DNA of 64,000 bases from positions 1-64,000 of the forward strand of contig WGNW01000001.1 in the NCBI GenBank assembly GCA_016124315.1, written 5' to 3'. The notes beneath the pieces were generated by a model that saw nothing but the letters and a program-made list of their open reading frames with translations, was not told the origin of the DNA and did no database searches. Positions within the stretch are counted from its first letter, which is position 1. Each line of letters starts with the position of its first letter. This DNA comes from Alphaproteobacteria bacterium. GTDB lineage: Bacteria; Pseudomonadota; Alphaproteobacteria; SMXS01. The translations under genes were made by a program, and so were the position numbers. Shown here piece after piece: positions 22,411 to 27,576 of the stretch.

Positions 22411-23817
22411 TCACTTGGAGACGACCTTGCCGCCGGCGACCCGCTGGTCGTCCTTCAGGCCGATGGGGAATTTGTCCAGATACGCATTGGGCTTGCGGCC
22501 GTCGTAGACGATGCCGTCGATGAACTCCTTCTGGGGCGGCTTGAAGCCGTCGGTGCCCCAGGGGAAGTCCTCCTTCTTCGCCTTGCCTTCCTCGATCAGC
22601 AGCTTGGCGGCCTTCATGTAGATGTCGGGCCGGTAGACCTTCTTGGCGGTCTCGAGGTACCACTTGTCGGGCTTCGCTTCGGCGATCTGACCCCAGCGCC
22701 GCATCTGGGTCAGGTACCAGATGGCATCCGAGTAGTAGGGATAGGTGGCGTAGTAGCGGAAGAAGACGTTGAAGTCCGGGACCGCGCGCTTGTCGCCCTT
22801 CTCGTATTCGAAGGTGCCGGTCATGGAGTTGGCGATCACCTTGGCGTCGGCGCCCACATATTCGGGCTTCGCCAGCATGGCGACCGCCTGCTTGCGATTG
22901 GCGTTGTCGTGCTCGTCCAGCCAGATGGCCGCGCGGATCAGCGCCTTGATCACGGCCAGGTGCGTGTTGGGATACTTTTCCGCCCATTCGCGGGTGACGC
23001 CGAACACCTTCTCCGGATTGTTCTTCCAGATCTCGTAGTCGGTGACGACCGGCACGCCGATGCCCTTGATCACGGCCTGCTGGTTCCAGGGCTCGCCGAC
23101 GCAGTAGCCGTTGATGGTACCGGCCTCCAGCGTGGCCGGCATCTGCGGCGGCGGCGTGACGGAGAGGAAGGCGTCCGCCTGGATCTGGCCGCTGATGTCG
23201 TTGGGCGCGTAGTAGCCCGGATTGATGCCGCCGGCGGCCAGCCAGTAGCGCAGCTCATAGTTGTGGGTGGACACGGGGAAGACCATGCCCATCTTGAACC
23301 GCTTGCCCGACTGCTTGAACGCCTCGATGACCGGCTTCAGCGCGTCGGCCTTGATGGGATGCACCGGCTTGCCGTCCGGGCCCATCGGGACGTGCTGCTT
23401 CATCATCTTCCAGACCTCGTTCGACACGGTGATGCCGTTGCCGTTGAGGTCCATGGAGAAGGCGGTGATGACGTCGCCCTTGGTGCCGTAGCCGATAGTG
23501 GCGCCGAGCGGCTGGCCGGCCAGCATGTGCGCGCCGTCCAGCTCGCCGTCGATGACGCGGTCCAGCAGCACCTTCCAGTTGGCCTGGGGTTCCAGCTTCA
23601 CGTACAGGCCTTCGTCCTCGAAGTAGTGGAGCTCGTAGGCGACGGCGAGCGGGGCCATGTCGGTCAGCTTGATGAAGCCGAAGGTCAGCTCGGGCTTCTC
23701 CACGAGCAGCGGCTTGGCGGCGGCGCCGGTGCTCAGCGCGGCAGCCAGGGCGGCGCCGGCCAGCACGGTGCGCGCCATGGTCGCGGCGCGGGACAGGATG
23801 TGGCGGGGAAACTTCAT
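22411..23817 (-). CDS. nrtA: Nitrate-binding periplasmic protein
   Basis: Substrate-binding component of the nitrate importer. 468 residues; a signal peptide ([20 protein letters not shown]) at residues about 12-33 is followed by the CmpA/NrtA fold: [52 protein letters not shown] and [15 protein letters not shown]. The start ATG 23817 is chosen because the signal begins there. It heads the operon and is preceded by a 370-bp leader with paired hexaloop hairpins and a terminator, the probable site of NasT control. NasS nearby is its cytoplasmic relative. Confidence 0.94.
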
Positions 23818-23884: not shown

Positions 23885-23940
23885 AAAAAAACGCCGCGGA
23901 CCCGATTGCTCCGGGTGATCCCGGAGACAGGTCAGCGACG
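23885..23940 (-). terminator. Leader terminator upstream of nrtA
   Basis: In the RNA the 5' arm CGUCGCUGACC (23940-23930) pairs with GGUCCGCGGCG (23902-23892), with one U-C mismatch, and is followed directly by seven U (23891-23885). An inner hairpin CUCCGGG-AUCA-CCCGGAG lies in the loop. It stands 67 nt before the nrtA start. It would stop transcription unless an antiterminator acts. Confidence 0.8.
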
Positions 23941-23949
23941 TTGCTGCGT

Positions 23950-24002
23950 GATGTGCCCGCCGTTGGGCGACGTCTCGGTGAACCGGCGCCGCCATTGGCG
24001 CC
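23950..24002 (-). promoter_or_regulatory. Tandem hexaloop hairpins, predicted NasT (ANTAR) RNA target
   Basis: Two stem-loops read in the order P1 then P2 on the minus strand. P1 (24002-23985): GGCGCC-AAUGGC-GGCGCC. P2 (23974-23950): core GCCC-AACGGC-GGGC with an extended, imperfect lower stem. Both loops are six bases with A at position 1 and G at position 4, the published rule for ANTAR-bound RNA. A 10-nt linker separates them and the terminator follows P2. The heptamer GCGACGT (plus strand) occurs both in the P2 arm and in the terminator arm. Function is inferred from this geometry and from the adjacent nasS-nasT genes. Confidence 0.85.
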
Positions 24003-24140
24003 TGATTCCTTGGAAGCAAGCTCCGTGCCAACGGCCGAAGCGCTTCCTTTCGGCCGTCAAGGCCGGGCGGGGAGCAGTCCCGCCCCGATCGGATTGCCTA
24101 ATTTTTAGACTATGCCGAATCGGTGATTACAGAATGATCA

Positions 24141-24165
24141 AATCTGCGCCGCAGTGCAACATGCA
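24141..24165. promoter_or_regulatory. TGCG-C-CGCA motif upstream of the nrtA leader
   Basis: TGCGCCGCA at 24145-24153 followed by GTGCAACAT. It lies in the probable nrtA promoter region. A CAGAATGAT stretch 9 bp away is also found at the porin site (27543-27551), so the two regions share two blocks. Confidence 0.4.
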
Positions 24166-24189: not shown

Positions 24190-25491
24190 TCATGTGCGGA
24201 TTGCAAGACGGTCCAGATAGCCGGCCGTGTCGTCCGGGTCGAACACCAGGCCGTCGAAGAAGCGGTCGGGCCCCAGGGTCAGCCGGCCGTCTGCGGAGCC
24301 GACCGCCGTGCGGCCGGCCAGCGCGCCCTCGACCTTGGCGTTCATGCTGGGCAGCGAGGCGCCCAGCCCGGCGTCGCGGACCGCGGCACGGTAGATGTCC
24401 GGGCGGAAGCAGCGCCGGGCGGCCTGCTCGGCCTCGGGAGAGGCCTCCACCTGCCCCCACCGGACCATCTGGGTGTAGATCCACACCGCTTGGGAAACCC
24501 ACGGGAAGTTGGCTGCCTGGCGGTTGAACACCAGGAAATCCTCGACATGGGTCGGCGGCTCGCCGGCCTGAAGGATCAGGTCACCGGAAAGCGGGCGCAG
24601 GATCAGGCCGGCGTCGACCCCCAGATAGCCCGGCCGCGCGAGCAGGTCCGCCAGTTCGGCCCGGTTCGCCGGGTCGTCCGCCCAGTGGGCCGCCCGGTAG
24701 AGCACGCGCACGAGCGCCTCCAGGACCGGCCGGTTCTCCTCGGCCCAGTCGGCACGGACTCCCAGCACCTTTTCCACGCCCATGTTCCAGAGCGCCGACT
24801 TGGTCACGACGATCCGGCCGATGCCCGCGTCCACCGCCAGGCTGTTCCAGGGCTCGCCCACGCAGAAGCCGTCGATGTGCCCGGCCTCGAGGCTCTCGAC
24901 CATCAGGGGCGGCGGGATCACCACCAGCCGGACGTCGCGGTCGGGATCGATGCCGGCCGCCGCCATCCAGTAGCGGAGCTCGTAATTGTGGCAGGAGAAC
25001 GGGAAGACCATGCCGAATGTGAGCGGCCGCGCGCCCAGTCTCCTGCGCTCCTCGACGACCGCCCGCAGCGCCGCGCCCTGCACGGCGGGGTCGAGCGGCG
25101 CGGAACCGGCGTCGGCCGCCAGCATGCCCTGGAAGAGGGCAAGCGAAACGGTGACGGCGTTGCCGTTCAGGCCCAGGAGGAACGGCGCGATGGTGGGCAC
25201 CGTGATGTGCCCGACGCCAAGGCTGCTGGCGATGGGCATGCCGGCGAGCATCTGGGCGCAGTCCAGGTGCCCCAGGTTGACCCGGTCGCGGATGTTGGCC
25301 CACGAGGTCTCGCGCACCAGTTCGAGGCGCAGTCCTTCCCGCCGGTCGAAGCCCTTCTCGGCGGCGACGATCAGCGGTGCGCAGTCCACCAGCGGGATGA
25401 AGCCGGCACGGACGGTGCGGAGATCGCCCGGCTCGTCGCCTCCGCGGAGCGACTCCGCCGCGTCCCAATCGCTCGCCTGCATGTCCTTCAT
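24190..25491 (-). CDS. nasS: NasS nitrate sensor, cytoplasmic binding-protein homologue
   Basis: 433 residues related to NrtA but without a signal peptide (N-terminus MKDMQASDWDAAESLRGG), so cytoplasmic. Shared motifs: [50 protein letters not shown] and IDGFCVGEPWNSLAV. In Paracoccus and Azotobacter, NasS binds NasT when nitrate is absent and releases it when nitrate is bound. It sits 7 bp downstream of nasT, as in those species. The tail lacks the long NrtA C-terminus. Confidence 0.92.
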   Translation of the reverse strand: MKDMQASDWDAAESLRGGDEPGDLRTVRAGFIPLVDCAPLIVAAEKGFDRREGLRLELVRETSWANIRDRVNLGHLDCAQMLAGMPIASSLGVGHITVPTIAPFLLGLNGNAVTVSLALFQGMLAADAGSAPLDPAVQGAALRAVVEERRRLGARPLTFGMVFPFSCHNYELRYWMAAAGIDPDRDVRLVVIPPPLMVESLEAGHIDGFCVGEPWNSLAVDAGIGRIVVTKSALWNMGVEKVLGVRADWAEENRPVLEALVRVLYRAAHWADDPANRAELADLLARPGYLGVDAGLILRPLSGDLILQAGEPPTHVEDFLVFNRQAANFPWVSQAVWIYTQMVRWGQVEASPEAEQAARRCFRPDIYRAAVRDAGLGASLPSMNAKVEGALAGRTAVGSADGRLTLGPDRFFDGLVFDPDDTAGYLDRLAIRT

Positions 25492-25498
25492 GGAAATC

Positions 25499-26089
25499 CT
25501 AACTGCCCAGCAGCCTGGCCGCCATGACCACGCCCTCGGCGATGTCGGCCAGCTTCTTCTTCTGCGTCATCGCGGTCTCGCGCAGCAGCCGGTAGGCATC
25601 CTCCTCGTTCATGCCCCGCTGCTTCATCAGGATTCCCTTCGCCCGCTCGATGACCTTGCGTTCGGCCAGCTTGCCGCGGGCCTCGTCCAGTTCGCCCTGA
25701 AGGCGGGAGAACGCGTTGAAGCGGCTGATCGTCATGTCGAGGATGGGCCGCACCCGGTCCTTCTGCAGCCCGCCCACGATGTAGGCGCTGACGCCCGCGT
25801 CCACCGCGGCCTGGATCATGGTGCCGTCCGACTGGTCGACGAACATGGCGACGGGGCGCCGGACGATGCGCGACACCTGGAACATCTGCTCGAGCACGTC
25901 GCGGCTGGGATTTTCCAGGTCGATCAGCATCACGTCCGGATCCAGATCGGCGAGGCGTCTGAGCAGGTTGCCCATTTCGCCGATGCGCGTGACCCTGGTA
26001 TAGCCGGCGTCGCGCAGTCCGTCCTCCAGGATGGCGGCGCGCACCGGGTTTTCGTCGATCACCACGATATTCAGCTTGGTATCGTTCAC
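25499..26089 (-). CDS. nasT: NasT ANTAR antiterminator
   Basis: 196 residues: an N-terminal receiver-like domain (LNIVVIDENPVRAAILEDGL) and a C-terminal ANTAR RNA-binding domain (ARGKLAERKVIERAKGILM and MNEEDAYRLLRETAM). ANTAR proteins bind paired hexaloop hairpins and prevent termination. The expected target is the nrtA leader. GTG start at 26089. It forms an operon with nasS. A perfect palindrome lies 25 bp upstream of its start. Confidence 0.94.
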   Translation of the reverse strand: MNDTKLNIVVIDENPVRAAILEDGLRDAGYTRVTRIGEMGNLLRRLADLDPDVMLIDLENPSRDVLEQMFQVSRIVRRPVAMFVDQSDGTMIQAAVDAGVSAYIVGGLQKDRVRPILDMTISRFNAFSRLQGELDEARGKLAERKVIERAKGILMKQRGMNEEDAYRLLRETAMTQKKKLADIAEGVVMAARLLGS

Positions 26090-27375: not shown

Positions 27376-27518
27376 GCACTCCGTTCTGGATGATCGAAGA
27401 AGTGCGCAAGGTCCTCACAACGGACGCGCGCACGCGGATCGGCGCCAGGCCAGACACACGGAACTGTGCTGGCGGCGGCGTTGCCGGCTGGTGCGCGTCG
27501 TTGCGCTCTGATCGGGAG

Positions 27519-27540
27519 AACGGTTCTGCGTCGAACCGTT
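27519..27540. repeat. 8-bp inverted repeat in the porin leader
   Basis: AACGGTTC-(6)-GAACCGTT. On the minus-strand RNA the loop is GACGCA, six bases with G4 but not A1, so it does not meet the ANTAR rule. It may still be a leader structure or operator. Confidence 0.5.
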
Positions 27541-27559: not shown

Positions 27560-27576
27560 AGTGTGCGGCGCAACAT
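27560..27576. promoter_or_regulatory. TGCG-G-CGCA motif upstream of the porin
   Basis: TGCGGCGCAACAT at 27564-27576, the same core and the same CAACAT half-site as at 26114-26130 and 24145-24161. It is about 190 bp upstream of the porin start, with a CAGAATGAT block at 27543-27551. Confidence 0.4.

Follow-up and report, generated by a model that had tools for sequence, protein, structure and literature searches.

How is transcription of the nitrate transporter gene nrtA controlled at a locus where the genes of a nitrate sensor and of an antiterminator protein lie next to its leader? We examined this question in the window, the 64-kb stretch of DNA analyzed here, in which the nrtA leader and nasT-nasS are read on the minus strand. 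The order is porin, nasT, nasS, sigma-54 promoter, leader, and nrtA. The porin-like gene (27375-26170) is followed by nasT (25499..26089), which encodes an ANTAR antiterminator protein with a receiver domain and an ANTAR domain (PF03861, E 3.5e-21), and by nasS (24190..25491), which encodes the nitrate sensor (NMT1_2, E 2.1e-78). The regulated gene, nrtA (22411..23817), encodes the substrate-binding protein of a nitrate ABC transporter (NMT1_2, E 2.6e-94). Its ATG is at 23817, and nrtB, nrtC, nrtD, and nirB follow downstream. The initial annotation had placed nasS and nasT directly upstream of the leader from the sequence alone, and the Pfam domains confirmed this. NCBIfam returned no specific name for NasT or NasS.

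The nasT product was the only ANTAR protein detected in the genome, which is 84% complete. It matches the EutV and NasR structures. Read together with the available text of the EutV study (PMC8934654), the structure match indicates that the ANTAR domain retains the equivalents of EutV Tyr164, Arg168, and Met172. The receiver has YIVGGL where EutV has YLVKPL, and the conserved Lys of the EutV stretch is absent. This suggests from the sequence that the NasT receiver may be a degenerate pseudo-receiver, in keeping with control by NasS and not by phosphorylation. A sigma-54 promoter (-24/-12), TGGCACGGAGCTTGCT, is located at 24015..24030 on the minus strand. It matches the consensus exactly and is the sole sigma-54 promoter match in 64 kb with up to one mismatch allowed; a comparable promoter is also present in related leaders. 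Upstream of it, at 24130-24160 on the same strand, TTGCATGTTGCACTGCGGCGCAGA resembles an NtrC-type palindrome, and a TTGCGCCGCA motif is found ahead of the porin leader as well, near 27570.

The leader, on the minus strand, contains three hairpins and an intrinsic terminator. P1, GGCGCC(AAUGGC)GGCGCC, is at 23985..24002; P2, GCCC(AACGGC)GGGC, is at 23955..23968; and P3, CAGC(AACGUC)GCUG, is at 23933..23946. Each has a six-base loop with A at position 1 and G at position 4 (an A1/G4 hexaloop) and a C:G closing pair, and the P3 stem is only 4 bp long. The terminator (23885..23942) has a stem spanning 23942-23890 and a U7 run at 23891-23885, which ends 67 nt before nrtA, as had been noted. P1 at 24002-23985, with its A1/G4 loop, also agrees with the initial annotation. 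The A1/G4 hexaloop assigned to P2 is likewise there, but the 23974-23950 span given for that hairpin is an imperfect extension of 23968-23955. P3 had been overlooked, and P1 and P2, although they exist, are not the canonical pair.

In the available text of Ramesh 2012 (PMC3369931), an ANTAR target is defined by a pair of A1/G4 hexaloops, of which the second lies over the 5′ base of the terminator; inter-hairpin linkers of 5 to 12 nt are given for eut leaders. P2 and P3 have this arrangement: both carry A1/G4 hexaloops, their linker is 8 nt, and the P3 loop and 3′ arm constitute the terminator 5′ arm, from 23942. P3 and the terminator are therefore mutually exclusive. Neither P1 nor P2 overlaps the terminator, and the P1-P2 linker, at 16 nt, is outside the 5- to 12-nt range. 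Judged by sequence, then, P2 and P3 are the canonical ANTAR dual hexaloop, the predicted essential pair that competes with the terminator, in which P3 would be the antiterminator. P1 is an extra, promoter-proximal A1/G4 hexaloop.

We made 5,000 dinucleotide shuffles of the leader (121 nt) and counted C:G-closed A1/G4 hexaloops whose stems had at least 4 bp. Two or more were present in 6 shuffled sequences, and three or more in none. The C:G criterion was taken from the common feature of the three hairpins and from the NasR SELEX consensus (PMC7496416); when it was dropped, the triple was still absent from all 5,000 shuffles. The triple is unique within the 64-kb window on both strands. At the gathering threshold, an Rfam scan of the window reported one tRNA and nothing else. 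A simple terminator scan, whose model does not allow for interruptions or branches in a stem, did not report the nrtA-leader terminator, which has both.

Folding energies are consistent with a switch of this kind. The whole leader is more stable than its shuffles (z -3.4), and the terminator stem at 23942-23890 has an energy of -34.8 kcal/mol. The leader folded to -58.9 kcal/mol with the terminator and to -51.6 kcal/mol with P1, P2, and P3 enforced. This difference of 7.3 kcal/mol fits a switch whose default state is termination and which stays open only with the help of a protein. For the nascent 5′ segment, the minimum free energy of -23.6 kcal/mol belongs to a hairpin formed from arms of both P1 and P2, 2.7 kcal/mol better than the -20.9 kcal/mol of P1 plus P2. 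Therefore, P1 and P2 may need cotranscriptional folding or a protein in order to form.

To read homologous leaders, we fetched nasS homologues with their flanks and inspected the nasS-nrtA gaps. P2 and P3 followed by a T-run terminator are present in the alphaproteobacterial leaders L082 (the window), L083, L002, L003, L004, L008, L037, L042, L045, L047, L048, L088, L103, and L104, and before a porin gene in L093; in L103 the P2 loop begins with G, not A. The initial annotation had staked its reading on a hexaloop pair being kept in homologous nrtA leaders, and the pair that is kept is P2 and P3. In an alignment of 14 of these leaders, 89.3% of the P2/P3 cells were paired, versus at most 61% for slid structures. 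Double-sided changes occurred in 16 cells versus 6.1 in shuffled alignments, and none of 500 shuffles reached 16. One P3 pair alternates between G-C and A-U, and because its 5′ partner is outside the terminator, the terminator constraint alone is an insufficient explanation. With the covariance model R1, the nrtA leader was the top match of its own genome (E 2.1e-6), partly by construction, because the window leader is among the 14 rows of the R1 alignment. Of 385 genomes from the class, 20 had an R1 match at E ≤ 0.01, and many of these matches precede nrtA or a porin gene.

These results bear on two other accounts of the leader. The region is G+C rich, and the hexaloops might have come from G+C-rich repeats in an ordinary terminator, or in a decaying leader, that is not under NasT control. 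We regard this as extremely improbable. The shuffles and the P2/P3 covariation argue against it, as do the homologous leaders found before nrtA in many genomes and the nasT-nasS genes that adjoin the leader as the source of the only ANTAR protein found. The other account comes from the initial annotation, which took P1 and P2 as the NasT-binding pair and proposed a switch built on a duplicated heptamer, GCGACGT, in which P2 sequesters one copy and the terminator 3′ arm picks its partner. Both heptamers do occur as described, at 23967-23973 and 23935-23941, as do P1 and P2, and when P2 and P3 were enforced, the first copy was the partner of the terminator 3′ arm in the lowest-energy fold. However, the P2-side copy is missing from the nearest relatives (L083, L002, and L003), which keep P1, P2, and P3, and hence is not conserved as a component of the switch. 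Furthermore, P1 and P2 lack terminator overlap and have the long linker, and most homologues are without an A1/G4 P1 yet have P2 and P3. The heptamer switch is thus very unlikely, whereas the broader identification of a NasT-type ANTAR leader for nrtA is well supported.

The role of P1 is a separate matter. L083 (AAAGAC), L002 (AAAGAC), and L003 (AAGGAA) retain the A1, the G4, and the C:G closure of P1, even though the stem sequence varies among these three and has one mismatch in L083 and L002. Most other related leaders have no A1/G4 hexaloop at this place, and many have a different hairpin there or none. They fit an account in which the P2-P3 switch, complete without P1, suffices alone, and P1 is a hairpin that stabilizes the 5′ end of the sigma-54 transcript and has an A1/G4 loop by coincidence. 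We consider this account plausible but somewhat short of an even bet, as the three relatives speak against it and A1/G4 hexaloops are in excess upstream of P2. An extra hexaloop was flagged in 8 of 39 nonredundant terminator-linked leaders versus 0.63 expected from shuffles, and control segments further upstream gave none. Two of the eight were artifacts (the sigma-54 promoter itself in L029 and a mis-assigned P3 in L159), and one genuine triple, in L095, was mis-assigned by the script and so went uncounted; about 7 of 39 is therefore a fair count. In addition, among C:G-closed hexaloops upstream of P2, 6 of 16 were A1/G4 versus 0 of 7 in the background.

Triples also occur in leaders that failed the 39-leader filter (L014/L015, L026, and L094). 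Good triples beyond the window lineage are those of L145, which has a sigma-54 promoter, L014/L015, L026, and the gammaproteobacterial L016, L019, L022, and L025. In the gammaproteobacterial triples, P2 and P3 are about 20 nt farther apart. Calls of TGGC(ACAGCG)GTTG in L019 and L025 were promoter sequence and were discarded. Four hexaloops are possibly present in L136 and L139, which precede a nasS/nrtA-like gene; the further pair is about 90 to 130 nt upstream of the canonical pair. The available texts of Ramesh 2012, Walshe 2022, and a 2021 actinobacterial survey describe hexaloop pairs only; our search covered openly accessible main texts, and we do not claim priority.

We suggest, at roughly even odds, that P1 serves as one more hexaloop for recruitment and increases the capture of NasT before P3 emerges. 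According to the available text of Walshe 2022 (PMC8934654), the EutV crystal structure suggests that the dimer engages hexaloops singly, and the authors proposed that it passes from a hairpin for recruitment to one for antitermination. If so, P1 and P2 would both serve for recruitment, with P3 as the site of antitermination. A wider proposal is tentative and, in our view, rather doubtful: that there is a class of three-hexaloop NasT leaders in several alpha- and gammaproteobacterial lineages, in which early loading at P1, and either stepwise hand-over along P1, P2, and P3 or a higher oligomer, tunes nitrate sensitivity.

A possible second ANTAR element (27473..27540, minus strand) precedes the porin-nasT-nasS genes. 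It contains the hexaloops GCGC(AACGAC)GCGC at 27506-27493 and CGGC(AACGCC)GCCG at 27486-27473. This was the second R1 match in the genome (27510-27470, E 0.079), weaker than the nrtA leader and located before the porin gene that precedes nasT. R1 matched the same pre-porin place in the genomes G002 (second-ranked, E 0.011) and G006 (third-ranked, E 0.076), loci L178 and L177, where the P2 loop begins with G, not A. Farther upstream, each of the three pre-porin elements has another hairpin with a six-base loop, in which G4 is present but A1 is not. The function of the element is uncertain because the window copy is without a T-run or U-run. One possibility is that it would provide a nitrate feedback loop on nasTS.

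Our preferred reading is a NasT-controlled transcription-attenuation leader before nrtA, with a sigma-54 start, to which we assign a probability of about 0.9. It draws on the anatomy, conservation, covariation, and energetic exclusivity observed above. In this mechanism, sigma-54 polymerase, presumably with NtrC, would start transcription a few nucleotides before P1 under nitrogen limitation, a control that we infer from the promoter type. Without nitrate, NasS would hold NasT, as it does in homologues, where NasS releases NasT when nitrate is present (PMC3795266). The terminator at 23942-23890 would then form with its U7 run, and most transcription would end before nrtA. With nitrate, free NasT would bind the A1/G4 hexaloops of P1 and/or P2 while they emerge and would then capture P3. 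Since P3 occupies the terminator 5′ arm, the terminator could not form, and nrtABCD-nirB would be transcribed. We infer the binding of NasT, the response to nitrate, and the part played by P1.

The leader has close counterparts in other ANTAR systems. The Paracoccus denitrificans nasA and Bradyrhizobium diazoefficiens nosR leaders belong to the same nasT-nasS system and likewise have hairpins and a terminator before nitrogen oxyanion genes (PMC3795266, PMC5424462, PMC6759348). The window leader differs from them in its nrtABCD-nirB target, its exact sigma-54 promoter, and its number of A1/G4 hexaloops, which is three; in the Paracoccus work, the hairpins named are two, HI and HII. The EutV, NasR, and AmiR antiterminators, according to the available texts of PMC3369931 and PMC8934654, share the dual A1/G4 hexaloops, the second over the terminator 5′ base, with a linker of 5 to 12 nt that compares with 8 nt for P2-P3 here. 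Relative to the pairs described in those texts, the window leader adds the upstream hexaloop P1. The Klebsiella oxytoca nasF leader and NasR provide the same nitrate-responsive ANTAR antitermination with A1/G4 loops, and SELEX with NasR showed a preference for a C:G closing pair (PMC7496416). However, NasR has its own nitrate-sensing NIT domain, whereas the window system would sense nitrate via the separate NasS.

We also compared the leader with the Rfam family RF03032, narK RNA. Its model matched the window leader with 33.7 bits (E 3.8e-5), below the gathering score of 43.2, and aligned P1, not P2, to the Rfam hairpin. Elsewhere in the genome RF03032 matches were at chance level, and control genomes also gave matches at E ≤ 10. 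The RF03032 consensus includes one annotated hairpin, with the loop AACGGC, along with a sigma-54 promoter. It ends in CGAC(AAAGAC)GUCG, a second A1/G4 hexaloop that is unannotated in Rfam. At the RF03032 loci (L148-L176), this second hexaloop lies within the left arm of a T-run terminator in 24 of 29 cases when the terminator arm may start inside the loop, and in 17 of 29 by a stricter register test; 2 of the 24 either lack the A1 of the loop or fall short of the gathering cutoff. Both helices covary, with 31 double changes versus 9.0 in shuffled alignments, a count over an alignment that pools the Rfam loci with three alphaproteobacterial leaders. An ANTAR gene is present in all 20 rescanned RF03032-positive genomes and lies within 2.2 kb of a match in 18 of them. 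An ANTAR protein was also present in 13 of 20 RF03032-negative genomes, a weak contrast because the negatives are other clades. RF03032 thus shares with the window leader the sigma-54 promoter, the A1/G4 hexaloop, and a second hexaloop in the terminator left arm, although its matches mostly show two hexaloops and the window leader has three. The position of the second hexaloop, the covariation, and the nearby ANTAR genes suggest that narK RNA is very probably a NasT target. In the literature searched, we found no account that gives RF03032 this function.

By analogy with the known systems, the nrtA leader would be an RNA switch through which nitrate-uptake genes are made only when nitrate is present. 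Its type is known and ordinary in kind; the elaboration to three hexaloops is recurrent. Because the hexaloops upstream of the antitermination hairpin number one in some natural leaders and two in others, the EutV-type hand-over model becomes testable. Identification as a NasT target would give RF03032 a function, and its model could be completed with the second hexaloop and the terminator.
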